A stretch of 63,888 nt of DNA, taken from positions 1 through 63,888 of the forward strand of contig WQZP01000014.1 in the NCBI GenBank assembly GCA_009780675.1, given 5' to 3'. Every line of letters starts with the position of its first letter. Within the stretch, counting starts at the first letter, position 1. Source of the stretch: Spirochaetaceae bacterium. Lineage in GTDB: Bacteria; Spirochaetota; Spirochaetia; CADAEX01. Positions 33,906-48,812 of the stretch are shown in pieces. The notes below the pieces were generated by a model that saw only the letters and a program-made list of their open reading frames with translations, was not told where the DNA came from and searched no databases. The position numbers were made by a program, and so were the translations under genes.

Positions 33906-35024
33906 ATGAATTTTAAAATAATAAAGTCAGACAGCAGTAGTAAAGCAAGAATCACAGAATTTATCCTGCCTCATGGAAAAGTATCAACCCCAATATTCAT
34001 GCCTGTTGGAACAAATGGCTCTGTAAAAGCTGTAAAGCATAAGACACTTTCCGATTACGGAGTAGATTTGATTTTAAGCAATACTTATCATCTTTATTTG
34101 CGGCCTGGTTCTGACATTATAAAGCAAGCAGGAGGGCTCCATAATTTTATTTCGTGGCAGCAAAATATTCTTACAGATTCTGGAGGATTTCAGATATTTT
34201 CTCTTGCTCCATTCCGAAAAATAACAAATGATGGAATAAAATTCAGATCGCATATTGATGGTTCATATCATACTTTAACACCAGAAGATGTTGTAGAGCT
34301 TCAACGGGTTTTCAAAAGCGATATTCTTATGCCACTTGATGTATGCAGCGCTCATGGTACAGAATATAAAAAAGCGATTGGCGCAATGAAAATTACACAC
34401 AAATGGGCAGAGCGCAGTATAGAATATTGGAAGAAATACAGAGAAGAGTGGGGCGGGCAGTTGTTTGGAATCATACAGGGAAACTTTTATAAAGATTTAA
34501 GAAAAGAGAGCGCAGAATATATATGCAGCCTTGATTTCCCCGGGATAGCAATAGGAGGATTATCTGTAGGCGAGTCTTTTGATGTATTCAAAGAATTTCT
34601 TGAATATACATCAGAATTTATTGATAACAGCAAACCCCATTATCTTATGGGAATAGGAACACCAGAATATATAATCGAAGCAGTTGAAAATGGAATCGAT
34701 ATGTTTGATTGTGTATATCCTACCAGAATTGCAAGAAATGGCACTCTGTTTACACGAAATGGCAAAATCACAATAAAAAAAGAAAGTTTTGCAAATGATT
34801 TCAACCCTATAGACGAAAAATGCAAATGCTTTGCATGTCTTAATTATTCAAGAGCATTTATAAGGCATCTTTTTAAAGCAAATGAAATACTTGGCCCAAT
34901 GCTCGCTACAGAACATAATCTTACATTCATAAGAGATCTTATTTCAGAAATAAAATCAAATATAGAATCCAATACATTTATGGATTTTAAAAAAAGATTT
35001 TTGGGTGATTATGGAAACAACTGA
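33906..35024 (+). CDS. tgt: Queuine/preQ1 tRNA-guanine transglycosylase
   Basis: Exchanges guanine 34 of GUN-anticodon tRNAs for the queuosine precursor. The 372-residue protein carries the substrate-binding TDSGGFQIFSL, LMPLDVCSAHG, GIIQGNFYKDLR, GGLSVGE, the nucleophile segment FDCVYPTRIARNGTLFT, and the zinc site CKCFACLNYSRAFIRHLF (three Cys, one His). GGAG lies about 12 bases before the ATG. A 131-base spacer separates it from lptG. No preQ1 riboswitch was recognised there. Confidence 0.96.
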   Translation: MNFKIIKSDSSSKARITEFILPHGKVSTPIFMPVGTNGSVKAVKHKTLSDYGVDLILSNTYHLYLRPGSDIIKQAGGLHNFISWQQNILTDSGGFQIFSLAPFRKITNDGIKFRSHIDGSYHTLTPEDVVELQRVFKSDILMPLDVCSAHGTEYKKAIGAMKITHKWAERSIEYWKKYREEWGGQLFGIIQGNFYKDLRKESAEYICSLDFPGIAIGGLSVGESFDVFKEFLEYTSEFIDNSKPHYLMGIGTPEYIIEAVENGIDMFDCVYPTRIARNGTLFTRNGKITIKKESFANDFNPIDEKCKCFACLNYSRAFIRHLFKANEILGPMLATEHNLTFIRDLISEIKSNIESNTFMDFKKRFLGDYGNN

Positions 35025-36576
35025 TAATACCTCTAAAAAGAGTTCTGTATCTGCTATATTGGTGATGCTCTGTACCTTTATCTCAAGAATTTTGGGATTT
35101 GCAAAAATAGCTGTAATCGGAGCTTTTTTTGGAGCAACAAAACACGCAGATGTTCTTAATGCTGTTTTTTCAATACCCAATAACTTAAGGAAACTTATGG
35201 CAGAAGGGGCTTTATCTTCTGCTTTTATACCTGTTTTATCCGAATCTCTTGTAAAAGAAAAAGATAAAGCAGTTACAAAAACAATTGTCAGAAATATAAT
35301 TACATTTCAGGTAATTATAATTGTGCCTCTATGTATACTTTCAATATTTTTTGCAGATTTTTTAATAAACAAAGTTTTTTTTGAATTTGCAGATCCATAT
35401 CTTAATTCGCTTGCAGTAGACCTTTTTAGATGGATTATAAGTTATCTTCTTTTAATAAGCATAAGCGCTGCAGTAATGGCAGTTCATAATTCACATGGTT
35501 ATTTTTTTATACCTGCGATTACCCCCATTCTTTTTTCAATTACTGTAATTTCAGGAATTGTATTTTTTTACAAATATCTGGGGATTTTTTCAATGGTAAT
35601 AGGGGTGCTTTCCGGCGGGCTCTTGCAGGTGATTTTCCAGCTTCCACTGTTTTTTAAAAATGGGTATGATCTTAAACCCAGCTTTAATTTTAATAACCAC
35701 TATTTTAAAAAAATAATGAAAAACTGGTTTCCGGTAGTTGCAACAGCATCAATATTTGCCATAAATTCCCAAATTGCCATTAGATTCGCATCCGGGCTGG
35801 AAACAGGAAGTTCTTCCGCGTTAAGTTATGCGATAGTGTTTTGGCAGTTCCCTTTTGGCGTTTTTTCCGCCTCCATTACGACAGTGTTTTTTCCAAAAAT
35901 GAGCCGTCTTTCAGCATCTAATATGACTAACGAACTTCTTAAAACAGTAAATACAGGGGTAATACATCTTTATTCACTTCTGCTCCCTTCAGGTATTTTT
36001 ATGTTCGTTATGGGAAATGAGATAATATCGATCGCAATGCAAAGAGGGTCTTTTATTGCGGAAAATACACATCTTACTGCATTTGTACTAAAAGGTTATG
36101 CTGCGGGGATTTTTACAGCAGGTTTTGTAAATTTTCTCCAAAGATTCTATTATTCTACACATAATTACAAAAAACCTTTTATTTTTGCTGCAATTATCTG
36201 TATAATAGATGTAGTGTTTTCAATAATTTTAAAACAGACATTCCTTAGAGTAGGTGGTCTTGCTATTGCCAATACAATTGCTTTTTCTGTAGGAGCTATA
36301 ATAATGTTTGTGGATATTAAAAAAACCTATCCATTATATGATTTAAAGCTCTTTTTTAAGCAAACAGGTAAAATAACTCTTGCATTAGTTATTCCATCAG
36401 TTTTTGTAATATTTTTCCGAACATATTATGATAGCTTATGGATTATGGGATTAAGTATAAAATTACTTGCTTATTTTTTGCTCACAACACTGGTTTTTAT
36501 AGTATTAGTGCTATTTTTCTATAAAATATTCAAAATAGATTTTATCTTTTTTTCTAAAAAAAGGAGCGCAACATGA
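35011..36576 (+). CDS. murJ: Lipid II flippase MurJ
   Basis: Flips the peptidoglycan precursor lipid II across the inner membrane. The protein has 521 residues, about 14 hydrophobic segments and the MviN signature near the N-terminus (FISRILGFAKIAVIGAFFG, FSIPNNLRKLMAEGALSSAF). I use ATG 35011; a GTG two codons earlier is also possible. It overlaps tgt by 14 bases, which suggests coupling. Its stop shares ATGA with the HEAT-repeat gene. Confidence 0.93.
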   Translation: METTDNTSKKSSVSAILVMLCTFISRILGFAKIAVIGAFFGATKHADVLNAVFSIPNNLRKLMAEGALSSAFIPVLSESLVKEKDKAVTKTIVRNIITFQVIIIVPLCILSIFFADFLINKVFFEFADPYLNSLAVDLFRWIISYLLLISISAAVMAVHNSHGYFFIPAITPILFSITVISGIVFFYKYLGIFSMVIGVLSGGLLQVIFQLPLFFKNGYDLKPSFNFNNHYFKKIMKNWFPVVATASIFAINSQIAIRFASGLETGSSSALSYAIVFWQFPFGVFSASITTVFFPKMSRLSASNMTNELLKTVNTGVIHLYSLLLPSGIFMFVMGNEIISIAMQRGSFIAENTHLTAFVLKGYAAGIFTAGFVNFLQRFYYSTHNYKKPFIFAAIICIIDVVFSIILKQTFLRVGGLAIANTIAFSVGAIIMFVDIKKTYPLYDLKLFFKQTGKITLALVIPSVFVIFFRTYYDSLWIMGLSIKLLAYFLLTTLVFIVLVLFFYKIFKIDFIFFSKKRSAT

Positions 36577-37931
36577 AATTAGATAAGTTATTTTTACTCA
36601 TCTGTTTTACTTTTTTTTCTGCTACTCTTTGTTTTTCCGAAGATACAGAACCATCAGAAACCAGCGCTTCATTGAGAAGAGAAAGAGAGAGGACACTTGC
36701 TTTTGGGCTTAATACAGAAGTATCTGGCCTGATTCGGGAGTTTATTACAGACAGAGATTTATCCTACAATGACCATCTTTTAAGCCTTTTTGAAACCACA
36801 ACAAGTGATCAGATCAGAAGAGATATTATTGAGTTGTACACAGTTGCTAATTCAATTAATTTAAAAAATCAGGTAATTGAAGCAATCAAAAACAGGGATT
36901 ATGAACCCAGAAGCGTAATAGTTGCAAGTATACGTTATATTGCTGAGATAAACGCTGTTGAAGAATATTATGAGATTTTTCTTGAGCTTTTAGACGATAG
37001 ACAAAGAGAAATCAGACTTGAATCAGTAAAAGCATTAACAGCTACAGGTAATAGAAAATTTTCAAAACCACTTATGCAGATGTATGATATAGAAGATGAG
37101 ACCTCGGTTAGATTGCAGATACTTCTTGATCTTGGAAAACTTGAAGACCCTGATACTGCAGAATTTCTAAAAGAGATAGCGTTTGATAGAGATCAGGAAA
37201 GAATATACAGACAATATGCAATACATTCACTTGGATATTTAAGAGATGAAGAAATTTTTAATGACCTTGTGGCTGCATTCAAAGAAGATGACCCTTTTAT
37301 AAGAACACATGCTCTTGCAGCTGTTGCAAAATATGATAAAAAAGAAGCAAATACCATTATTTTTGAGGGAATGAGAGATGAAAACTGGCGGATCAGAAGG
37401 CAAGCTGTAGTTGCTGCAGGAGAGAGAAAAAGCGAAGAGTTTGTTCAGATACTTATTTTCAGATCAGAGAGAGATCCTGTTGAAGATGTAAGAGTTGCTT
37501 CTCTTACTGCTCTTGCAGAAATAGGTGGAGAAGAAGCATTTGATTTTATAAGAAGAGTAGCAGAGGAACAAAGAGGAAGTGTAAGACTCAGGCTCCACGC
37601 TTTTACACTGGCAATAAATAATGATACTGGAAATTCACTTGTAATGATCGAAACTCTTTTGCAAAGAGAATCTGCTGCTGCTAATCAAAGATTTTTTGAA
37701 AGCCTTGCCAGTGAACTTTGCAAAGTAGAATACCCAGGACTTGCCCCTTTTTTTGAAAGAATGCTTGACAGCAGTTCGGTTGTTGCAAGAATAGCAGGGC
37801 TTAGAGGAATTCGGCTTAACAAAATAAGTCGTCTAAAAGATAGAGTCCAGGCAATGGCAGAAGACCAAAGACAGGCTTCTGCAGTAAGAACTAATGCTCT
37901 CGCAACCCTGGAAGTTCTTCAAGGAATTTAG
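36573..37931 (+). CDS. Exported HEAT-repeat protein
   Basis: The 452-residue protein has a signal peptide (MKLDKLFLLICFTFFSATLCFS) and then about ten HEAT-type helical repeats of 30-40 residues, visible as recurring REIRLESVKALTATGN, YRQYAIHSLGYLRDEEIFN, IRTHALAAVAKYD, IRRQAVVAAGERKS and VRVASLTALAEIGG. HEAT solenoids are protein-binding scaffolds; this one is probably periplasmic. The start overlaps the murJ stop (ATGA), so a role near peptidoglycan export is possible but not shown. It ends 3 bases before the stop of the convergent vWA gene. Confidence 0.87.
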   Translation: MKLDKLFLLICFTFFSATLCFSEDTEPSETSASLRRERERTLAFGLNTEVSGLIREFITDRDLSYNDHLLSLFETTTSDQIRRDIIELYTVANSINLKNQVIEAIKNRDYEPRSVIVASIRYIAEINAVEEYYEIFLELLDDRQREIRLESVKALTATGNRKFSKPLMQMYDIEDETSVRLQILLDLGKLEDPDTAEFLKEIAFDRDQERIYRQYAIHSLGYLRDEEIFNDLVAAFKEDDPFIRTHALAAVAKYDKKEANTIIFEGMRDENWRIRRQAVVAAGERKSEEFVQILIFRSERDPVEDVRVASLTALAEIGGEEAFDFIRRVAEEQRGSVRLRLHAFTLAINNDTGNSLVMIETLLQRESAAANQRFFESLASELCKVEYPGLAPFFERMLDSSSVVARIAGLRGIRLNKISRLKDRVQAMAEDQRQASAVRTNALATLEVLQGI

Positions 37932-37934
37932 TTC

Positions 37935-39302
37935 TTACCTCGTAAATTGCGGTGGAAGGCCTCTGCGTTCAGTTAGCTTTAGTATTGCATTGATTCTCTC
38001 AAGAGGGGAGATATATTCCCAAAATCTTATACTTACTGTCTGCTGTTTTTCGGTCATTATAGTAATATCCTGGTCCAAAGGATTTTCAATTTCTCTATCC
38101 CCAATTGTAGGGAAAAACTCTGATTTTATTGGAGTAAAAATATATTTGTCACCATCAAATTTTAAACTCGCAATAGCTCCTGGCATCTTATAAAGAAAAA
38201 TAAGATATGAAGAATTGCTTCCGCCTATAGATTTAACAGTTCCTCTTTTAAAGCCATGTATGTTTCTGCTGGTTCCTACAATAAGATCGTTCTGACCAGC
38301 AACTTTCATAATAATAGGTCTTCTGTTGCCGTCATCTGACTTGCAGCCATCTTTATCAATATCGCTACGTACGATTTTATAGGACTCCCTAACCGAAGCT
38401 CCGGAAAAATATCTTATAATCAGAATAAAAACAATAATTGTAAATAAAATAATTAATAATATAAATAATATAAAAGCATTATTTTGAGCTGCAAAACTAT
38501 CCAAAATAGAACTTCTGGCAGATGTTTCAGCTCTATCTGCTTCGGTTCCTGGTATTTCTGCAGCAGGTGTTTCAACTGCTGTTGCAGGCAAACTCCTTCT
38601 TTCTTCAGTTGGAACATTATTTGCATCAGGGGTAAAAACTCTGGCGTTATCAATAAAGTCAAATATACTTGGTTCAACAAATCCGTTAGCAACAACCGCA
38701 TCTTGCTGCCCGGTTACGCCAATGGTTCCGGATATTCTGGGCGCTTCTGCTGATGGGTCATCCGGTAATCTTATAATAGTTATTTTCCAGTCAGTTTTTC
38801 TTAGCTCTTCGACCTCTATTTGAAGAAGATTAGCCCCTGTTACAGGGTCTATAACTAATTGGTATGGAGAGCCAGGTGGCGGGTTATGAATGCCATCAGT
38901 TAAAATCACAATTTCACGGCTTTGATCATAACTTGGAACCCTTGAAATATAATCTCTAAGATATTTAAAAGCCGAGATAACATCTGTATGTCTTCCAAAT
39001 GGATGTAATAAAAAAAGATTATTTATTACAAATTCAATATCATCTATGGTATTGATCTGTCTTGAAAGAATAAAAGAAGGGGTCGCATCAAAAGTTAAAA
39101 GGTGCAATGTATCGCCAAATTTTAAGTGGTCAGAAATAATATCTCTTATAATATAATTTAGAAGATCATTATAAATAGGAAACACACTTGCAGATGTATC
39201 AAGCATTATAACCATATCAACTGGGGTTGCTTCTATTTGTGAGGGAATAATTAAAAATAGCCCCACAAGTAATAAAATCAGCATTAAAAAATTCTTCTTC
39301 AT
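37935..39302 (-). CDS. von Willebrand A-domain membrane protein
   Basis: The 455-residue protein has a signal peptide or anchor (MKKNFLMLILLLVGLFLIIPS), then a vWA domain with an intact metal-ion-dependent adhesion site (DTSAS, D35; later LTDGIH). A linker rich in Ala/Thr/Glu leads to a membrane helix (AFILFILLIILFTIIVFILII), followed by a C-terminal domain of about 130 residues with beta-strand character (LIVGTSRN, SYLIFLYKMPGAIASLKFDG) resembling an FHA-like or other beta domain. The vWA domain should face the periplasm and bind a protein partner. Last gene of the minus-strand operon that starts at 43018. Confidence 0.85.
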   Translation of the reverse strand: MKKNFLMLILLLVGLFLIIPSQIEATPVDMVIMLDTSASVFPIYNDLLNYIIRDIISDHLKFGDTLHLLTFDATPSFILSRQINTIDDIEFVINNLFLLHPFGRHTDVISAFKYLRDYISRVPSYDQSREIVILTDGIHNPPPGSPYQLVIDPVTGANLLQIEVEELRKTDWKITIIRLPDDPSAEAPRISGTIGVTGQQDAVVANGFVEPSIFDFIDNARVFTPDANNVPTEERRSLPATAVETPAAEIPGTEADRAETSARSSILDSFAAQNNAFILFILLIILFTIIVFILIIRYFSGASVRESYKIVRSDIDKDGCKSDDGNRRPIIMKVAGQNDLIVGTSRNIHGFKRGTVKSIGGSNSSYLIFLYKMPGAIASLKFDGDKYIFTPIKSEFFPTIGDREIENPLDQDITIMTEKQQTVSIRFWEYISPLERINAILKLTERRGLPPQFTR

Positions 39303-39329
39303 TTTTAAGATAACCCTTTATAATTAGCT

Positions 39330-42017
39330 TTATATAAGTTCTGTTTTTGTTATTTTTTTAACAGTATAATTATAATTTCGATCATTTATTGTAAAATTCA
39401 GATTTTCATTAACCTTTGCATTTAATAACGCACTCCCAAAAGGGGCCATGTAAGAAATAATATTATTCTCTGGAGAAGATTCCCATGGGCCTAGTATTGT
39501 GTATGTTTCTTTGGCTTTTGCATCGTTATTAAACAGTATAGCTTTTGTGCCAAAAGAAATTTTACCTGTATTTACTGTTGAAGGATCAAACACATAACAC
39601 TTTTCTATGTCTTCTTTTAGTTTTCCTACTGTTGCGTTAAGTATTTCCTGTTTCTCCTTGCCAGCTTTATATTCTGCATTTTCGCGAAGGTCTCCAAGGG
39701 CAATTGCTGCTCCTATTTCTTTTGAGTTATTCGGAATCTCTACTTCAAGAATATGTTTAAGTTCTTTTTTCTTATTTTCAAGACTTATTGCTGTAACAAT
39801 AAGACCGCGTGATACAATATCGATTTCTTCTTCGATCCCTATAAATTTAATATCAGGATGGATATCTTTAATCTTCTTCTTGATTTCAATCTTTATTGCA
39901 GGATCAACCCCTTTTGTATCATCTATAAGAGAAATCATTCTTATAATTATGTTTTTATCTGCGTTTAAGATAAATTTTTCAAGCCTTTTATCTTTAAACA
40001 AATAATTATTAAGTTGCTTATTAATCTTTTTATTATTACTTACATTTCTTTTATTAACAATTTCCCTGTATGTAATATCAAGGAGGTAGATCGCATTAAC
40101 AAGAATTTTTTCTTCACCAGGCGATGCTTTTTCAAAAATAGCATATTCTTCAACATGCTTTAAAATCCAGATAAAACTTTCGCGGTACTCTTTATAATTT
40201 TCATATATTGTTTTTACAAGCTCTGTTACTTTATCCTTATAATCCTCTGCAATCAAGGCATCGATAACGCTTCTGTTGAGGTATTGAGGGAATATCTGAA
40301 GATATATCGTAGACCAGTTTTTATCATATTTTTTTACTTTATCAAGGAAAAGTTTTTTAAGATCAGAATCTGCGATTTTTGTGAACAATACAGGGATATC
40401 ACTCAAATTTTTAATAAAATCATTGAATTTTACACTGATTCCCGGATTAAGATGAGGGAATTTTGAAACAATCTGATCAACAAGAAGATAACTGCAAATA
40501 ATAAATTCATTTGGAGAACTATAAGATTTAAGGTAATTTGTAAAGTATTGAAACATTTCCGGAAAATAATCTGATTCAATAGAAACTTCATCCACAAAAT
40601 CAAGAAGAGTTTTTAATTTATCAAAAAAACCTGCTTCTGCCTTAAAATTATTATAGGCTTTTTCTTCAAAAGTAATTGGCTTATCTCTTACAACAAAAAA
40701 ATCTGCCTTATCCGGAAGGTTCCCAAAATCTGTATTTGTTTTAAGAATTTTTCTTGCCTCATTGCTCCATGATGTCCATTCGCCGGCTGTAAGTATACTT
40801 GGGACAAGTTCGCTTTTGATTCTTTTTATATCAGCAGAATTACCAAAACTTTTTATAATTGTTTTAAGAGTCCAGGGAGTATCGCCTTTAATCATCTTCC
40901 TTAGGTCTTCTTTTTTCTTTGTGCTTTTATAAACCCAAAAATGCTCTTTTCCAAGCATTGTAAGGGCATTAACAGCCATTTTAAGAGACATTGGATGTTT
41001 CTTCTTTTTTATGAAATCAATTACAACATTATCACCTTTAATATCTGTAATTTTTCCTATTCCCCATGACCTGTGAAATACAAAATTATTTATTTCAAAA
41101 GAGATATGCTTTTCAAAATCAGCAATTGCTTCGTGAATATTTCTCCACTTTTGGGAAAGGTTTGAAATTTTTATATACTCTTCAACCTGACTATGATAAC
41201 TGTACTTCTGGGTAAAACAGAATATTATTTCGCTTCTCATCTCGTTATTCGCAGGTTCAAGAACAAGTATATGTTTTAAAATATCTATTGCATAATTCCA
41301 GTTTTCTCTTTTTTTATAATGTTCATAAAGCTCCTCAAGAAGCTGGCAAGCTCTTTCTTCGCCTATGGTTTTTGTTACTTTTTTAGCTAAATGATAAAAG
41401 AAGTCGATTTCATCAGGGCAATAATCAATAAGTTTTGTCCATAACTCTTTTACAGCAGAAAATTGCTTCTTATTTGCGTATCTGTGGATAGCCTTTTTAT
41501 AATAATCTATAGCTTTTTCTTTACTGCCCTCTGTTTCATGTTTTTCCGCAAGATGCTTTATAATTTCAGTCTCATCGTAATCAACTTTTATAAGCCTTTC
41601 CCATACCTCGATTTTTTTATCATTTTCACCTTCATTTTCATAACATTCAGCAAGCATCCTCAGGGCAACTTTATTTTCACCATAGTCGAGAATTCTTTCG
41701 CAAAGATATTCAACAATATTCCACTTGTGATTATCAGAAAAAATATTAATTAGAACTATAAGGTTTGAATCATCAATAATATGTTTCGAAAGTGAAAGAA
41801 TGCCTGAAATATAGAGCCCAATAATACTGTTTTTTGAATGAACTAAATGTTCTTCACACAGTTTAAGCACTTCCTGCAAAGACTCATCATCGCCTGAATC
41901 TTTTATAAGGTGGTTAAGATCTTTAAAATTATTAATTGTATAACTTTTTATTGTCGCGCGTGTCCATTTTTCTTCATTAAGCATCTGACCAATTTTTTCA
42001 AGCAAGTTCGAACTCAT
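39330..42017 (-). CDS. greA: Transcription cleavage factor GreA fused to a long helical/TPR N-terminus
   Basis: Gre factors insert a coiled coil into RNA polymerase and trigger transcript cleavage. Ordinary GreA is about 158 residues; this protein has 895. The first 290 or so residues are TPR-like helices (ALRMLAECYENEGENDKKIEVW, KAIDYYKKAIHRYANK), followed by a middle region with EINNFVFHRSWGIGKITDI, and the Gre domain occupies the last 160 residues. The coiled-coil tip is GDLRENAEYKAGKEKQ near residue 773, keeping the Asp and Glu that hold the catalytic metal. Similar ~900-residue GreA proteins are known from Treponema and Borrelia. GGAG lies 7 bases before the ATG. Confidence 0.93.
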   Translation of the reverse strand: MSSNLLEKIGQMLNEEKWTRATIKSYTINNFKDLNHLIKDSGDDESLQEVLKLCEEHLVHSKNSIIGLYISGILSLSKHIIDDSNLIVLINIFSDNHKWNIVEYLCERILDYGENKVALRMLAECYENEGENDKKIEVWERLIKVDYDETEIIKHLAEKHETEGSKEKAIDYYKKAIHRYANKKQFSAVKELWTKLIDYCPDEIDFFYHLAKKVTKTIGEERACQLLEELYEHYKKRENWNYAIDILKHILVLEPANNEMRSEIIFCFTQKYSYHSQVEEYIKISNLSQKWRNIHEAIADFEKHISFEINNFVFHRSWGIGKITDIKGDNVVIDFIKKKKHPMSLKMAVNALTMLGKEHFWVYKSTKKKEDLRKMIKGDTPWTLKTIIKSFGNSADIKRIKSELVPSILTAGEWTSWSNEARKILKTNTDFGNLPDKADFFVVRDKPITFEEKAYNNFKAEAGFFDKLKTLLDFVDEVSIESDYFPEMFQYFTNYLKSYSSPNEFIICSYLLVDQIVSKFPHLNPGISVKFNDFIKNLSDIPVLFTKIADSDLKKLFLDKVKKYDKNWSTIYLQIFPQYLNRSVIDALIAEDYKDKVTELVKTIYENYKEYRESFIWILKHVEEYAIFEKASPGEEKILVNAIYLLDITYREIVNKRNVSNNKKINKQLNNYLFKDKRLEKFILNADKNIIIRMISLIDDTKGVDPAIKIEIKKKIKDIHPDIKFIGIEEEIDIVSRGLIVTAISLENKKKELKHILEVEIPNNSKEIGAAIALGDLRENAEYKAGKEKQEILNATVGKLKEDIEKCYVFDPSTVNTGKISFGTKAILFNNDAKAKETYTILGPWESSPENNIISYMAPFGSALLNAKVNENLNFTINDRNYNYTVKKITKTELI

Positions 42018-42067
42018 TTTTTTCTCCAGAAATTTATTGTATAAGAAAATATTTTCATAACATCCTT

Positions 42068-43018
42068 TTAGTTTGAGTAAAGCTCATATACAGAAGGATT
42101 AACTTTATTCATTTTTCTCAAGACATCTTCAATCCTGTCTTTACTGTCATTTGTACTTATATAATAATCAATAAGCCAAAAATATCTATTTAAGAGCCTT
42201 GGAACAGTAATCGCTCTATTTTCCACATCTTCATCATACTGATGCTCAAGAGCGCTTATTGACTGCTTAAGTTTTCCAAGCTCAAGTACTTTTAGTTCTC
42301 TTTTTACATTAAAAACACCATATAACACTCCGTAAATCGGAATCCATTCATTTAAAAGCTTATCATCAAATCCAAGCGATTTTACTCTACCAATAAGTTT
42401 TTTTATAAGAAGCGACTCAAGAGAGTAGAGGTCAATGCTTTGCGGATCAATAAAGAAAGCTTCTCTAAAAAATATTTTTGATGCTTTAACTTCGTTAATA
42501 AATGCATAACAATCTGCAATTTCTGCCATAAGCTCTGCATCTTCGTGCTTTGCCTGCATTACTATTTCAAGATATTCAAGAGCGCGGCAGTAATCACCTA
42601 AATTTTTATGACACAATCCGATTTTTATTATTATTTCGTGGTCATCTGCCCCATTTTCGTATAACTGATTAAAATGATGAAGTGCCTGGTTAAAAACCCA
42701 GAATTTTATAGCATAAATCGTAAGCTCATCATCTGTTATATCGAATTTTCCCGAAAAAGCAATAAAAGCTTTCCATTGCCGGAAAAGGTAGCAACCCCGC
42801 TCATAATGGCCTTCAACAGTCTGAAAACGCATTTTTCTTTCAATCCAGAAGTTGACAAACTTAAGTCCATTTATTATAAGTTTATCATTAAAATCTATTG
42901 AAAGAGCTTTCTCTATATCTGTTTTAGCTTTTTCAAAATCACCATTTTTTAAACTTTCTCTAGCTACTTGCAATAGTGATGCAATACTCTCTTTTACACC
43001 AGCAATACTTTTATCCAT
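42068..43018 (-). CDS. Cytoplasmic TPR protein
   Basis: The 316-residue protein has no signal peptide. TPR-like pairs are visible at LLQVARESLKNGDFEKAKTD, IIIKIGLCHKNLGDYCRALEY and LMAEIADCYAFINEVKASKI, with helical spacers between. The function is unknown, presumably protein binding. It is the first gene of the operon with greA and the vWA gene, 50 bases upstream of greA. A near-consensus promoter lies just upstream, with a leader of only about 9 bases. Confidence 0.82.
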   Translation of the reverse strand: MDKSIAGVKESIASLLQVARESLKNGDFEKAKTDIEKALSIDFNDKLIINGLKFVNFWIERKMRFQTVEGHYERGCYLFRQWKAFIAFSGKFDITDDELTIYAIKFWVFNQALHHFNQLYENGADDHEIIIKIGLCHKNLGDYCRALEYLEIVMQAKHEDAELMAEIADCYAFINEVKASKIFFREAFFIDPQSIDLYSLESLLIKKLIGRVKSLGFDDKLLNEWIPIYGVLYGVFNVKRELKVLELGKLKQSISALEHQYDEDVENRAITVPRLLNRYFWLIDYYISTNDSKDRIEDVLRKMNKVNPSVYELYSN

Positions 43019-43033
43019 ATTAATCCATTTTCA

Positions 43034-43062
43034 TTATACTTATTTGAGTAAACATAGTCAAT
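43034..43062 (-). promoter_or_regulatory. Near-consensus promoter of the TPR-greA-vWA operon
   Basis: On the minus strand, the -35 box is TTGACT (43057-43062), the spacer is 17 bases and the -10 box is TATAAT (43034-43039). The predicted start near 43027 leaves a very short leader before the ATG ending at 43018. Confidence 0.78.
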
Positions 43063-43113
43063 TGAGCTGTATTTTAATTGCTTTAATAACAACAATTTGA
43101 TAAGTTTTTAGCT

Positions 43114-43776
43114 ATGCTAGAGAGAAAAATACAAATTTCTGCCTCGATTTTAGGGGCAAATCTAAGTAATGTTGAAAAAGCACTCAGACTGTGCGAAGAG
43201 TCTCAGGTGGATGCAATCCATATTGATGTAATGGACGGTCACTTTGTCCCCCAGCTTACATTCGGAAATAAATTTTTAGCAGATCTCAAAAAAATAACTA
43301 AACTGCCAACCGATGTCCACCTTATGATCAATAATCCTGACCGTTTTATTAATGACTATCTTAAAGCAGGCGCTGATTGGATAACAATCCACATGGAAGC
43401 TGATACCCATGTGAACAGAACACTGCACTCAATAAAAGATGGTGGCGCAAGAGCAGGGATATCCATTGTCCCTTCCACGCCTGTAGCAGCTCTTTCTGAA
43501 GTAATCGATATTGTGGATTTTGTCCTGGTTATGACAGTAAATCCTGGTTTTTACGGGCAAAAAATTATCCCCTCTGCCATAAGAAAAATTGGGGAATTGG
43601 ATGTTATACGAAAAGCAAAAAACCTTCCGTTTGAAATTTTTGTTGATGGCGGCGTTAGCAGCAAAATATCCGGAGAGCTTATAAGACTAGGGGCAGACCT
43701 TCTGGTAACTGCTTCTGCTTTTTTTAATGCTGATGATCCTAAAAAAGAGGTTGCGCTAATCAGAAGTGGAACATAA
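43114..43776 (+). CDS. rpe: Ribulose-phosphate 3-epimerase
   Basis: Interconverts ribulose 5-phosphate and xylulose 5-phosphate in the pentose phosphate pathway. The 220-residue TIM barrel shows SILGANLSNVEKALRL, the metal-binding IDVMDGHFVPQLTFG, DVHLMINNPDRF, VNPGFYGQK and VDGGVSSK. There is no strong ribosome-binding site. Upstream, TTGAGC and AATAAC with a 17-base spacer form only a weak promoter candidate. Confidence 0.96.
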   Translation: MLERKIQISASILGANLSNVEKALRLCEESQVDAIHIDVMDGHFVPQLTFGNKFLADLKKITKLPTDVHLMINNPDRFINDYLKAGADWITIHMEADTHVNRTLHSIKDGGARAGISIVPSTPVAALSEVIDIVDFVLVMTVNPGFYGQKIIPSAIRKIGELDVIRKAKNLPFEIFVDGGVSSKISGELIRLGADLLVTASAFFNADDPKKEVALIRSGT

Positions 43777-43777
43777 A

Positions 43778-44842
43778 ATGAGTAAAAATTTTAAAAAAGC
43801 AGAAAAAAAGTTTAAACAGGGAAAATATTCAGATGTAATAAGGTACCTTGAGCCCGAAGTTTTTAAACACAGGGAGAATGAACGCTTTTATTACTATCTG
43901 GGTATATCATGCCTTTTTCTCGGCGATTTTGGCGGAGCAAATTCTTATTTAAGACGAGCGCTTCAAATCAAGCCAGATTCCAGTCAAATGCTTGGGCTTG
44001 CAGTTGTTCATCTAAAGCATGGCAACCCTTCCGAAGCAATAAGAATATGGCTTGATATACTTGATAAGGACCCTGAAAATAAATATGCGCGAAGGTCTCT
44101 TGATATTTTAAGAAAATCAGAAACCCTTGAAAAAATTCCCGAAGATTTTCTTGCAAAAAATATCAACAAGTTTTTGCCCCATTTTGATAACACGAAGTTT
44201 TATAACCTTAGCCGCTATGCAATTTTAACTGTTTCTGCCCTTATAATTTTAACAACTCTTTTTTTTGGATCAATATCCCTTATAAGAAATATACATAGTT
44301 CAAGAGACCCTTTTCCGGAACTTACAATAAGCAGGAATCTAAGTGATATCGTTACATCAGGAGATTTTTTGATCGAACTCCAGCCCAGGGAAATAGTTAC
44401 ATTATTTGAACAGGCAAAATTACACTTCATTAATAATAGAGATAATGACGCAAGGATAAATATAAACACGCTTCTTAATTCCAATGCATCTGAATCTGTA
44501 AAAGACAGCGCCCGACTGCTTGACAGTTACCTTAGGTCCCCAGATGCCAGACATTTCAGAAACACTATAACTTACAGAATGATAGCTGAACGCCCATATC
44601 TATATCATAACTGTTATGTAAGATGGTCAGGAAGAATAGCAAACATACAGGTATTCGAAGACAGCTTTTCCTGTGATTTTCTTATTGGGTATCATACAGG
44701 AAGAATAGTTGAAGGGATAGTAAATCTCACAATAGATTTTCCGGTTGTTCTTGATGAACACTTTTCCTATGAAATCATAGGAAGACTCAAAACCGATGGC
44801 CCCCATCTTACCGTAGAAGTTTTATCGCTCAGGAACTTTTAA
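43778..44842 (+). CDS. Membrane protein with N-terminal TPRs
   Basis: The 354-residue protein has TPR-type helices in the first 120 residues (KFKQGKYSDVIRYLEPEV, YYLGISCLFLGDFGGANSYL, LAVVHLKHGNPSEAIRIW), one membrane helix at about 150-172 (AILTVSALIILTTLFFGSISLI), and a C-terminal region outside the membrane with a beta-rich end (YVRWSGRIANIQVFEDSFSC, EIIGRLKTDGPHLTVEVLSL) that may be OB-like. ATG 43778 is chosen; a GTG four codons earlier would overlap rpe. Its stop abuts the dtd start. Function unknown. Confidence 0.83.
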   Translation: MSKNFKKAEKKFKQGKYSDVIRYLEPEVFKHRENERFYYYLGISCLFLGDFGGANSYLRRALQIKPDSSQMLGLAVVHLKHGNPSEAIRIWLDILDKDPENKYARRSLDILRKSETLEKIPEDFLAKNINKFLPHFDNTKFYNLSRYAILTVSALIILTTLFFGSISLIRNIHSSRDPFPELTISRNLSDIVTSGDFLIELQPREIVTLFEQAKLHFINNRDNDARININTLLNSNASESVKDSARLLDSYLRSPDARHFRNTITYRMIAERPYLYHNCYVRWSGRIANIQVFEDSFSCDFLIGYHTGRIVEGIVNLTIDFPVVLDEHFSYEIIGRLKTDGPHLTVEVLSLRNF

Positions 44843-45292
44843 ATGAGAGCTGTTATCCAAAGAGTTTTTAATGCATCTGTAAAAGTAGAAAATAAAATCA
44901 TAGGAAAAATAGAAAAGGGAATCGTTGTTTTTCTTGGTGTACACACTGATGATACAGAGCAGGATTGTAATTATATTGCTGATAAAATATTAAATCTTAG
45001 GATATTCAACGACGCAGAAGATAAAATGAATCTTTCAGTTTCTGATATAAAAGGGGAAGTGCTGGTCATATCCCAGTTTACACTTTACGGAGATGCAAGA
45101 AAAGGCCGCCGGCCTTCTTTTAATGAAGCAGCCCCTCCGGAAAAAGGGAATAATTATTATCAAAAAGTTGTAGAGATAATCAAAAAAAGCAGCCTCAAAA
45201 CAGAAACAGGGGAGTTTGGCGCTTTAATGGAAATAGAGTATATAAATGATGGCCCTGTCACAATTATTATGGATTCATTTAAACAATTTTGA
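44843..45292 (+). CDS. dtd: D-aminoacyl-tRNA deacylase
   Basis: Removes D-amino acids (and glycine from tRNA-Ala) mischarged onto tRNA. The 149-residue protein shows [16 protein letters not shown], the active-site [17 protein letters not shown] and the C-terminal NDGPVT motif. Its ATG follows the preceding stop directly (TAAATG). A tandem repeat begins 10 bases after its stop. Confidence 0.95.
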
Positions 45293-45301
45293 GTCCATTT
45301 T

Positions 45302-45379
45302 CTTTTACTACTTCCTGGCGTTCTTTGCGGTTCTTAGTGCCTTTTACTACTTCCTGGCGTTCTTTGCGGTTCTTAGTGC
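45302..45379. repeat. Perfect 39-bp tandem repeat, two copies
   Basis: 45302-45340 and 45341-45379 are identical; a third copy begins at 45380 and diverges after CTTT. The unit contains CTGGCGTTCTTTGCGG and TTCTTAGTGC and leads into CTTTGCGTG, resembling the dispersed 'CTTTGCG...CTTTGCGTG' intergenic repeats seen in many bacteria. It separates dtd from the convergent gene at 45413. Confidence 0.9.
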
Positions 45380-45412
45380 CTTTGCGTGAAAAAATGGGTT
45401 GCCAGTAAAAAA

Positions 45413-46081
45413 CTAATCAACATTTTCCTGAAAATCCAGAAAACTGTACGGAATATTGGAAACAGTAATATAGATTTCATGCCTGTAGAAATTAAGCACA
45501 TGAGAGTCAACTTTTTGTGAATAGATAAAAAAAATTCTGCTCTCCTCAAGCATTTCTCTGTTAAATCTTCTGCTTTCTTGCCCCAAATTTAAAAGAAACA
45601 TAGCTTGATTAAGAAAAATATTTTCAGCTTCTCTTTTATCAAGCAGAACTGTTTTTTCCATTATCTTTTTTCTTAAAAGCGAGCTTCTGAAATTAGCAAT
45701 ATTATTACATATTTTAATAAAAGATTCTCTGGACTCCTGAAAAGATTGTTCATCATTAAAAAGATTATCGAGCATAAGGTAAAGGATAAACTCCTTTTCA
45801 TTCACATTATCGCCCCGCTGATAATACATCAAATCAAGAAGAGAAGAGAAATTTCTGTCTCTTCGCCTTGCAATATAGTGTACTGCCCTTATTCTCTCTT
45901 CAAAACCCACAGCATTAAAATAATCAAATATTATTGCATTATCCCTGCTGCTACTGCGTTCAAGCCAATTAGCGCGCTCAATTTCCATATCTTGTGGAAA
46001 AGTATCCTGCGCATTTACTTCCTGTAGATAAATAAAAAATATTCCAAAAATCAAAAAGATTTTTATCAGCATTAATTTCAT
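45413..46081 (-). CDS. Exported helical protein of unknown function
   Basis: About 222 residues. I start at MKLMLIKIFLIFGIFFIYLQEVNAQ, a good signal peptide; the frame is open 12 codons further upstream, and neither start has a clear ribosome-binding site. The mature part is helical, with many Arg, Phe and Glu residues (EERIRAVHYIARRRDRNFSS, MEKTVLLDKREAENIFLNQA), and could contain HEAT-like helices. It diverges from recA across 101 bases. Confidence 0.72.
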   Translation of the reverse strand: MKLMLIKIFLIFGIFFIYLQEVNAQDTFPQDMEIERANWLERSSSRDNAIIFDYFNAVGFEERIRAVHYIARRRDRNFSSLLDLMYYQRGDNVNEKEFILYLMLDNLFNDEQSFQESRESFIKICNNIANFRSSLLRKKIMEKTVLLDKREAENIFLNQAMFLLNLGQESRRFNREMLEESRIFFIYSQKVDSHVLNFYRHEIYITVSNIPYSFLDFQENVD

Positions 46082-46095
46082 TATATGAAGAGTTA

Positions 46096-46124
46096 TTGAC
46101 CTGGTAAAGTAAATCATGCAAAAT
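46096..46124 (+). promoter_or_regulatory. Candidate recA promoter
   Basis: TTGACC (46096-46101), a 17-base spacer and CAAAAT (46119-46124) fit a sigma-70 promoter moderately (5/6 and 4/6). No LexA-type box was seen. Confidence 0.35.
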
Positions 46125-46182
46125 TATTGAAGTAATATGCTAATAGTGGTTGTTGTTACCTTATGAAGGAGAAAATTTATAC

Positions 46183-47316
46183 ATGGCAAAGAAATTAGAA
46201 AATCAAATACCTGAAATAAAAAATAATGATTCTGAAAGGCAAAAAGCTCTGGAAGCTGCAAAACTTCAGATCGAAAAGCAGTTTGGAAAAGGTTCTCTTA
46301 TGAAACTTGGAGAAAAACCCATAAGCAATAATTTTCAGGTAATACCTTCTGGGGCAATAACGCTGGATGCTGCGCTTGGGATTGGCGGCTACCCTAAAGG
46401 CCGAATCATAGAGATTTTCGGCCCAGAGTCTTCCGGAAAAACAACTATTGCTCTTCATGCAATTGCTGAGTCTCAAAAACAAGGGGGAGTAGCTGCTTTT
46501 ATTGACGCAGAACATGCGCTTGACCCCATTTACGCAAAAAATCTTGGGGTAAACACAGAAGACCTTTGGGTTTCCCAGCCCGATGCAGGCGAACAAGCTC
46601 TTGAAATCGCAGAATCTCTTGTAAGATCAGGCGCTGTAGATATAATCGTCATAGATTCTGTTGCAGCTCTTACACCGCAGGCAGAAATCGAAGGGGATAT
46701 GGGCGATTCCCACATGGGTTTGCAGGCAAGACTTATGAGCCAGGCTCTTCGCAAACTTACAGCAATCATTTCAAAATCAAATTCATGCCTTATATTTATA
46801 AACCAGACAAGAATGAAAATAGGAGTTATGTTTGGTAATCCAGAAACAACAACAGGGGGAAATGCACTAAAATTTTACTCTTCTGTGCGGCTTGAAGTAA
46901 GAAAAATCGAGACCATAGAGAAATCTGCAGATGAAGCAATAGGGAACAGAGTCAGGGTAAAAGTTGTAAAAAACAAAGTTGCGCCTCCATTCAGAAAAGT
47001 GGAACTTGAAATAATCTTTGGCAAAGGGGTTTCTGCAACTGCCTCGCTTCTTGATGCTGCTGTAAACGCAAATATTGTCCAGAAAAGCGGAAGCTGGTAT
47101 GCTTATGGAGAAGAAAAAATAGGGCAGGGAAAAGAGAACACAAAAGAGTTTATTGAGAAAAATCCCCAGATTATGAAAGAGATAGAAACCAAAGTAAGAG
47201 AAGTGCTTTTTCAGCCATCTGCTCCGAATGAAGCAACAGAAAAAGATAAAAAATCTGGTGAAGCGCCTGAAAAAGCTGAACCCATTGAAAAAGCTGAACC
47301 TACTGAAAAAGAGTAA
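46183..47316 (+). CDS. recA: Recombinase RecA
   Basis: Forms filaments on single-stranded DNA for strand exchange. The 377-residue protein has Walker [10 protein letters not shown] (80-88), Walker [14 protein letters not shown], loop L1 [13 protein letters not shown], and L2 around [21 protein letters not shown]. The frame extends upstream, but ATG 46183 is 12 bases after AAGGAG and begins the conserved protein. The C-terminus ends in a charged tail with a short repeat ([15 protein letters not shown]), longer than usual and probably disordered. Confidence 0.97.
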
Positions 47317-47344
47317 ATGATTTTTCTCTTAAAAAATCCCATGT

Positions 47345-47395
47345 TAAGGCACGAAGACGTGAAGAATTGCACCATAAAAATTGCTTTGCGCCTTA
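47345..47395. repeat. Imperfect inverted repeat of the CTTTGCG family
   Basis: TAAGGCACGAAG (47345-47356) and CTTTGCGCCTTA (47384-47395) are inverted copies matching at 10 of 12 bases, in the recA-folK gap. The motif is related to the tandem repeat at 45302-45379. No T tract follows directly. Confidence 0.6.
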
Positions 47396-47426
47396 GCGTG
47401 TTAAATTTAGAATAAGACAAATATAA

Positions 47427-47939
47427 ATGACTGTTTATATAGGCGTAGGCTCCAACATTGGCAACAGAGAAGAGAATATCGCAAAAGCTTTTTTATTGCT
47501 AAAAAACCACTTTTTATCACTGGAAACAGCATCTCTCTATGAATCAAAAGCATTATATTTTGAAAACCAGCCCGACTTCCTCAATACAGTTTTTAAAGGG
47601 GTAATACAGGAAAATATGACCCCTCAGCACCTTTTATCCCTGCTGCTTGAAACCGAGAACATTCTTGGAAGAGAAAGAGACCTGGCGCTTCCCAAAGGAC
47701 CAAGAACTATTGACCTTGATATATTGCTGTTTGGAAACCAGGTAATCAACAAAGAAAATCTTGTAATACCGCACCCAGGCATTAAAGAAAGGCTTTTTGT
47801 TCTTCTTCCTCTACTGGAACTCGATAAAAACCTGAAACATAGCGCTACAGGGGAGAAATATGATATTTTTTTAAACTCTCTGGGGAAAGAGGGTATATAC
47901 TTTTACAAATCTAATCGATATATTGAAAATATAAAGTAA
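47427..47939 (+). CDS. folK: HPPK, folate biosynthesis pyrophosphokinase
   Basis: 2-amino-4-hydroxy-6-hydroxymethyldihydropteridine pyrophosphokinase, a step of folate synthesis. The 170-residue protein shows IGVGSNIGNREENI, FLNTVFKG, LLETENILGRERD, the metal/substrate motif GPRTIDLDILLFG, and PHPGIKERLFVLLPL. No clear ribosome-binding site. It begins the folK-scpA-scpB-rluB-cmk-rpsA run, with scpA 24 bases downstream. Confidence 0.94.
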   Translation: MTVYIGVGSNIGNREENIAKAFLLLKNHFLSLETASLYESKALYFENQPDFLNTVFKGVIQENMTPQHLLSLLLETENILGRERDLALPKGPRTIDLDILLFGNQVINKENLVIPHPGIKERLFVLLPLLELDKNLKHSATGEKYDIFLNSLGKEGIYFYKSNRYIENIK

Positions 47940-47963
47940 ATTGTTAACAATAGAGAGCATAAG

Positions 47964-48812
47964 ATGTCTTTGACCCAAACAGAAGATAGTTCACAACCTG
48001 AAGGCGCTACGCAGAAATTTAAACTTGGAGAATTTGAAGGCCCTCTTGATCTTCTCCTTTTCCTCATAAAAAAATCAGAAATCAATATATATGACATACC
48101 AATAGCTGAAATCGTTGAACAATATCTTCAATACCTTGAATATGCCACAAAAAAGAACCTCGATAATCTCTCGGAGTTTTATACAATGGCAGCTACATTG
48201 TTATATATAAAATCCAAAATGTTGCTCCCCATTGAAATAGATATTGATGAAGAGTTTGAAGACCCACGCAAAGAACTTGTTGAAAAACTTATTGAGTATC
48301 AGAAATTCAAAAAACTTTCAGAAATAATGAGCGACAAAGAAAAAGAATCTGAATTCATAATCGAAAGGACCAGTAATCAGAGGAATCTTCCATTTGTTAA
48401 TGATGATGAATTGTGGGAAGAGATCGATATTTGGGATCTGCTGCAAACATTTTCATCGATAATCAGCAGCCTCTCGAACGAGCAGATACTTGATATATAT
48501 GAAGAAGTTACTCTTAATGAAAAAATTACTTTTATGAATGAACTGCTTGATAAAAAGCAAGAAATACTTTTTACTGAACTTATCAGGAATAATTCATCTA
48601 TCATGGAATTTGTCTGCGCATTTATGGCAATACTTGATTCTGTAAAAAATAAATTAATAACAGTTTATCAAAACCGGATGTTTGGGGATATTCGAATAAA
48701 AAAATATCAGTATAAAAATGATACTGGGATAGATGATACCATTGGCGTAGCATCTTCAGACAGCGTTGTAGCATCTTCAGATAGCGAAGCGCATTCAGGC
48801 AGGGAAGATTAA
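47964..48812 (+). CDS. scpA: Segregation and condensation protein A
   Basis: Kleisin subunit that bridges the SMC heads in chromosome condensation. The 282-residue protein has EFEGPLDLLLFLIKKSEINIYDIPIAEIVEQYL, AATLLYIKSKMLLP, and a C-terminal winged-helix region. The last 30 residues are a low-complexity tail in which the ASSDS unit is repeated at DNA level (GTAGCATCTTCAGA twice). Its stop shares one base with the scpB start (TAATG). Confidence 0.94.
   Translation: MSLTQTEDSSQPEGATQKFKLGEFEGPLDLLLFLIKKSEINIYDIPIAEIVEQYLQYLEYATKKNLDNLSEFYTMAATLLYIKSKMLLPIEIDIDEEFEDPRKELVEKLIEYQKFKKLSEIMSDKEKESEFIIERTSNQRNLPFVNDDELWEEIDIWDLLQTFSSIISSLSNEQILDIYEEVTLNEKITFMNELLDKKQEILFTELIRNNSSIMEFVCAFMAILDSVKNKLITVYQNRMFGDIRIKKYQYKNDTGIDDTIGVASSDSVVASSDSEAHSGRED

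Follow-up and report, generated by a model that had tools for sequence, protein, structure and literature searches.

Genes and features at the locus

The window (the whole stretch of 63,888 nucleotides that was analysed) carries on its reverse strand a gene for a long GreA, placed between genes for a TPR protein, here called TPR316, and a vWA membrane protein. The greA open reading frame starts with ATG and is free of internal stops. The first approximately 735 residues of its product are referred to below as the N-part. The following features were assigned, in order of coordinates:

37935..39302, (-): vWA membrane protein, 27 bp downstream of greA, an accessory at most; VWA_2 above the Pfam cut-off
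39330..42017, (-): long GreA of the NF011309 family, open reading frame of 895 aa; NF011309 at 1051 bits over residues 6-894; the sole Gre protein of the genome
39348..39800, (-): GreA domain, residues 740-890, with acidic tip D776/E779; PF03449 and PF01272 far above cut-off, match to PDB 1grj, tip invariant
39810..40943, (-): second helical region, residues 359-736; predicted helical (AF2 pLDDT mostly 78-93), no Pfam match over cut-off
40944..41120, (-): domain assigned to the PcrA/UvrD-type Tudor domains, residues 300-358 (H315, W318, G321, F335); HHalign, Foldseek, VIA, and PF21196 in a relative
41121..42017, (-): predicted N-terminal TPR or helical-repeat superhelix, residues 1-299; sub-cut-off Pfam TPR matches, AF2 helices, VIA matches to TPR structures
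42068..43018, (-): TPR316, the conserved partner gene, directly upstream of greA across a 50-bp gap; borders the N-part gene at 31 of the 36 loci compared

Gre domain

The NF011309 model (PRK14720, 'transcription elongation factor GreA') covers the whole protein, its score of 1051 bits comparing with a cut-off of 714. The model names the Gre function only and is silent on the Tudor domain, on TPR316 and on the stand-alone N-part, which it also matches. In the Pfam search the Gre N domain was located at residues 740-809 (PF03449, 61.2 bits) and the Gre C domain at 817-890 (PF01272, 69.3 bits), both well above their cut-offs, giving the coiled coil and globular C-terminal domain of a GreA. The acidic tip reads GDLREN without loss; its D776 and E779, corresponding to D41 and E44 of E. 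coli GreA, are invariant among close relatives (alignment A1). The D..EN motif was present in 74 of 76 Gre domains, and the fused Gre retains its tip in nearly all members. The initial annotation, which had described a GreA with its catalytic tip kept at the end of a long, mostly helical protein with TPRs, was borne out on both points.

The window protein thus shares the two Gre domains and the acidic tip with E. coli GreA (PDB 1grj), and differs from a standard GreA or GreB in being more than five times longer and in having a Gre portion that is not separately startable. Production of Gre alone by internal initiation was considered and rejected, there being no in-frame ATG, GTG or TTG at the junction of N-part and Gre. 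The host genome (99% complete) was searched for a second, short GreA, a check that had been proposed with the initial annotation, and no second PF01272 match was found. Transcript cleavage by the Gre domain is established for the family and, by analogy, would be expected of the window protein. Gene-name and domain searches of the literature returned no functional study of, or experiment on, the long GreA.

N-terminal part and its relatives

The N-part was mostly helical, with TPRs, by Pfam, AF2 and VIA. TPR matches fell at about residues 118-182, below the Pfam cut-off; residues 1-299 were modelled by AF2 as helices with pLDDT mostly 75-93, and TPR structures were matched by VIA over residues 1-304. 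Structure prediction, called for earlier, therefore showed the helices and TPR superhelix that had been anticipated, together with a Tudor domain at residues 300-358 that the initial annotation had missed; these residues form the best-conserved stretch of the N-part. A relation to Ctr9/Paf1 was considered and rejected. The top Foldseek matches of the full-length model were Ctr9 and other eukaryotic TPR proteins, yet TM-scores were about 0.1-0.16 and the long alignments had rmsd values of 30-47, so that the likeness is that of a common TPR superhelix only. VIA matches of the full-length model were likewise generic TPR proteins.

A second NCBIfam model, NF004969 (PRK06330, 'transcript cleavage factor/unknown domain fusion protein'), presumably the model of the Chlamydia protein, matched window residues 172-882. 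At 170 bits against a cut-off of 697 the window protein is a homologue and not a member. The two share a homologous N-part from residue 172 or so onward and a C-terminal Gre, and differ in that NF004969, with 718 positions, is without about the first 170 residues of the window protein. In Chlamydia, CT636 is listed as greA (PMC5575166). The same model matched L073 (G012), a spirochaete N-part without any Gre, over residues 177-679 (8.5e-35), and the homology of the N-part is therefore independent of Gre. With a homologous fusion represented by NF004969, the suggestion that no other phylum carries such an N-part on GreA is probably wrong.

Tudor domain

The assignment of residues 300-358 to the PcrA/UvrD-type Tudor domains rests on the agreement of sequence profiles, predicted fold and residues. 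HHalign against spirochaete PcrA Tudor sequences gave a score of 45 (P 2e-9), the best of 200 column shuffles giving 16.4 and other segments of the long-GreA family, away from the Tudor region, all scoring 14.5 or less. Among 20 members, weak matches were obtained to CarD_TRCF_RID in 13 and to PcrA_UvrD_tudor in 12. In a profile search of the PDB UvrD ranked first and PcrA third, with weak E-values. PF21196, the PcrA Tudor family, scored 15.1 bits on the window's own sequence, below its cut-off of 23.9, and a search of the host genome gave no PF21196 match at all; when 60 spirochaete genomes were searched with the profile, one long GreA (G040) exceeded the cut-off. PF21196 matched only 18 of these 60 genomes in all.

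The AF2 model of the isolated domain was of modest confidence (mean pLDDT 59.7, the barrel about 73-82). Its best five Foldseek matches were all C-terminal domains of UvrD or PcrA (E-values 0.015-0.028). With VIA, 7egt ranked first (Z 7.0, rmsd 1.2, 47/47 residues), followed by 7egs, 9dqs, 6yi2, 5dma and then CarD; the Z of 7.0 is by itself not decisive. The RNA polymerase interaction domain (RID) of CarD and Mfd (PF02559) has a similar small barrel, and its Pfam matches were borderline or sub-threshold: 18.1 bits on the isolated window domain, below the cut-off of 23, and 23.0, at the cut-off, on one stand-alone N-part (G034). Profile similarity to it was far weaker than to PcrA (HHalign 20.8 vs 45.0), and a CarD/Mfd assignment was ranked below PcrA. 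The likeness to the C-terminal Tudor of PcrA/UvrD (PF21196; PDB 5dma, 7egs, 7egt) extends over the fold and the H, W/F and F of the binding face. The difference lies in the setting, for the window domain is internal to a TPR protein without a helicase and the RpoB motif recognised by PcrA is absent.

Tudor-fold relatives that bind RNA polymerase in bacteria include PcrA, Mfd, CarD and RapA, and the PcrA mutants H681A, W684A, K712A and L714A lose RNA polymerase binding; W684 together with F705 has been likened to an aromatic cage (PMC5397179). By alignment with 5dma and the numbering of PMC5397179, PcrA H681, W684 and F705 correspond to H315, W318 and F335 of the window protein. Conservation was counted over 80 distinct regions with gaps excluded. 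Position 315 was H in 69/69 regions, 321 was G in 69/69 and 335 was F in 73/73, while W or F occupied position 318 in 66 of 69. The alignment places PcrA K712 and L714 either at H341/M343 or at M343/L345, without deciding between the two.

The PcrA Tudor binds a helicase interaction motif in RpoB and also binds UvrB (PMC8318588). The strict motif was found in none of 29 spirochaete RpoBs (loci L189-L217), the host genome included, and near-matches at a fitting place occurred only in three (G007, G029 and G004). The canonical helicase motif of RpoB is accordingly unsupported as the dock, and the docking target may differ from that of PcrA.

Gene neighbourhood

Of 36 loci drawn from about 30 families, 31, among them every split locus, had a TPR316 homologue adjoining the N-part gene, and the pairing was kept with or without Gre; at the five exceptional loci the homologue was still absent under profile search. 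The vWA gene adjoined only in some families of the window's class, and was not adjacent in f2, f5, f7 and G149, a member of the window's own family; outside the class, no vWA adjacency was found in the neighbourhoods examined. The initial annotation had grouped the three genes as one operon whose products might form an assembly, and had asked whether the operon is conserved. For TPR316 and the N-part this holds across the phylum; the vWA gene is conserved far less well, and the vWA protein is unsupported as a core member.

Cotranscription had also been proposed. The three genes lie on the same strand with gaps of 50 and 27 bp, no terminator-like site was seen on the (-) strand of the TPR316-greA-vWA genes, and the best promoter-like match (11/12) lies just upstream of TPR316, promoter-like matches overall being no commoner than in shuffles. 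On this arrangement the genes are likely, and not more than likely, to be co-transcribed.

By our own reading of an N-terminal signal-like stretch and a membrane segment, the vWA domain is probably extracytoplasmic. Some 160 residues past the membrane segment were without a Pfam match over cut-off; relatives of this protein are often about 700 aa long.

The wider block, at window positions 33906-48812, comprises tgt, murJ, HEAT, vWA, greA, TPR316, rpe, TPR358, dtd, recA, folK and scpA. Its gene content, from tgt to scpA and including a second TPR protein, TPR358, is largely conserved across the class. In G076, a genome that fits Borrelia, recA is directly next in the block; recA is BB_0131 in Borrelia (PMC5663514).

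Distribution and history of the fusion

NF011309 was matched in 196 of 198 spirochaete genomes and PF01272 in 191 of 198; the fused long form was present in about 150 of the 198 (hand count from the profile tables). Within the window's class one Gre match was obtained in each of the 39 genomes except G169, which has two. Outside the class, some families encode one or more short Gre proteins in addition to the fused form. In family f17 all 29 genomes encode one short GreA (open frames of 131-184 aa), and nine of them, inspected in detail, encode the N-part as a protein of its own (open frame 735-748 aa). The split or Gre-less form occurs also in f45, f11, f19, f20, f28 and f33. Split genomes encode an N-part of about 735 residues separately, the short GreA usually being encoded elsewhere. 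Two genomes of at least 95% completeness, G012 and G163, have the N-part, and a Gre C domain was not found in either.

At the individual loci L126, L125 and L127 (G012, G163 and G044, the last 80% complete), the N-part and TPR316 were present and no Gre C domain was found anywhere in the respective genome. In the small genomes G052 and G109 of family f35 (L132:6966-9683(-) and L072:1009-3717(-)) the N-part is kept, the coiled coil of Gre looks shortened and the D..EN tip is missing. The f35 protein being without its tip, its Gre activity is probably lost. From the f17-type, Gre-less and f35 genomes together it follows that the N-part survives in genomes whose Gre activity resides in another protein, has probably been lost or was not found. 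The existence of a stand-alone N-part, and its retention in genomes with a separate or decayed Gre or with none found, were overlooked in the initial annotation.

In a midpoint-rooted tree of 76 Gre domains, 57 fused and 19 short domains were parted by one branch (support 100/99), at which, the program warned, long branches meet. The N-part tree, also midpoint-rooted, needed two changes between fused and stand-alone forms, one change being compatible as well. A single fusion of Gre to an older N-part within the spirochaetes is probably what these sequences record, as their simplest reading and not as proof; the chlamydial fusion would then need a separate fusion, transfer or an older origin. 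No matches were obtained when plasmids and phages were searched for the N-part protein.

Interpretation

The initial observation was right and its interpretation is to be changed: the core consists of the N-part, its Tudor domain and TPR316, with GreA as the attached piece. What the analysis shows directly is the set of domains and their conservation, the pairing with the TPR316 gene and the occurrence of Gre-less scaffolds. That the Tudor domain binds RNA polymerase, that TPR316 is bound and that Gre is tethered we infer. In the mechanism proposed, to which we give an even chance, the N-part and the TPR316 product would form a conserved cytoplasmic scaffold associated with RNA polymerase, and the Tudor domain would dock it there. 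Recruitment of TPR316, and probably of other partners, would fall to the TPR superhelix together with the second helical region, and Gre would be a tethered effector: once the scaffold had docked, its acidic tip could reach the secondary channel and promote transcript cleavage in backtracked complexes.

The persistence of the N-part where GreA is separate or missing suggests that the scaffold is probably an unrecognised part of the spirochaete transcription machinery. The same persistence can be turned the other way. The Tudor domain might be no polymerase dock, its partner being instead TPR316, the scaffold itself or a repair protein, for instance UvrB, so that only Gre touches RNA polymerase; such an arrangement would fit an N-part that outlives Gre, the missing helicase interaction motif in RpoB and the binding of UvrB by the PcrA Tudor (PMC8318588). 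Tudor domains moreover bind many partners, a point that counts against the polymerase-docked scaffold. A partner other than the polymerase is a serious rival; we nevertheless consider this reading rather unlikely, since it leaves aside the fusion of the N-part to Gre, the binding of RNA polymerase by the bacterial fold relatives PcrA, Mfd, CarD and RapA (PMC5397179) and the conserved counterparts of two residues that PcrA needs for that binding.

The protein could also be an ordinary GreA in function, to which the N-part adds only stability or localisation. Its intact tip, its position as the sole Gre of the genome and its annotation simply as GreA agree with this, but the N-part and TPR316 are conserved as a stand-alone gene pair in genomes whose GreA is a short protein encoded elsewhere or in which none was found, and the N-part is kept where the Gre tip has decayed, which makes the explanation improbable. 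The assembly proposed at the outset, in which TPR316, the long GreA and the vWA protein would together link transcription to the envelope, draws on the tight same-strand gene order of the window and several families of the class. It is very improbable, with the vWA gene not adjacent in f2, f5, f7 and G149 nor outside the class, and with the vWA domain itself probably outside the cytoplasm.

The polymerase-associated scaffold may be taken further, as a tentative proposal somewhat short of even. The N-part and TPR316 would then constitute a phylum-wide and hitherto unrecognised accessory complex of RNA polymerase, docking by a PcrA-like Tudor domain off the known helicase motif and having a cleavage-independent function of its own, GreA having been fused to it on the branch leading to most spirochaetes. 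A near-universal spirochaete protein, called only GreA in databases, seems to form part of a larger complex that includes a conserved TPR partner and is probably associated with the polymerase. Its Tudor residues and naturally split forms allow separable tests of the scaffold apart from transcript cleavage.
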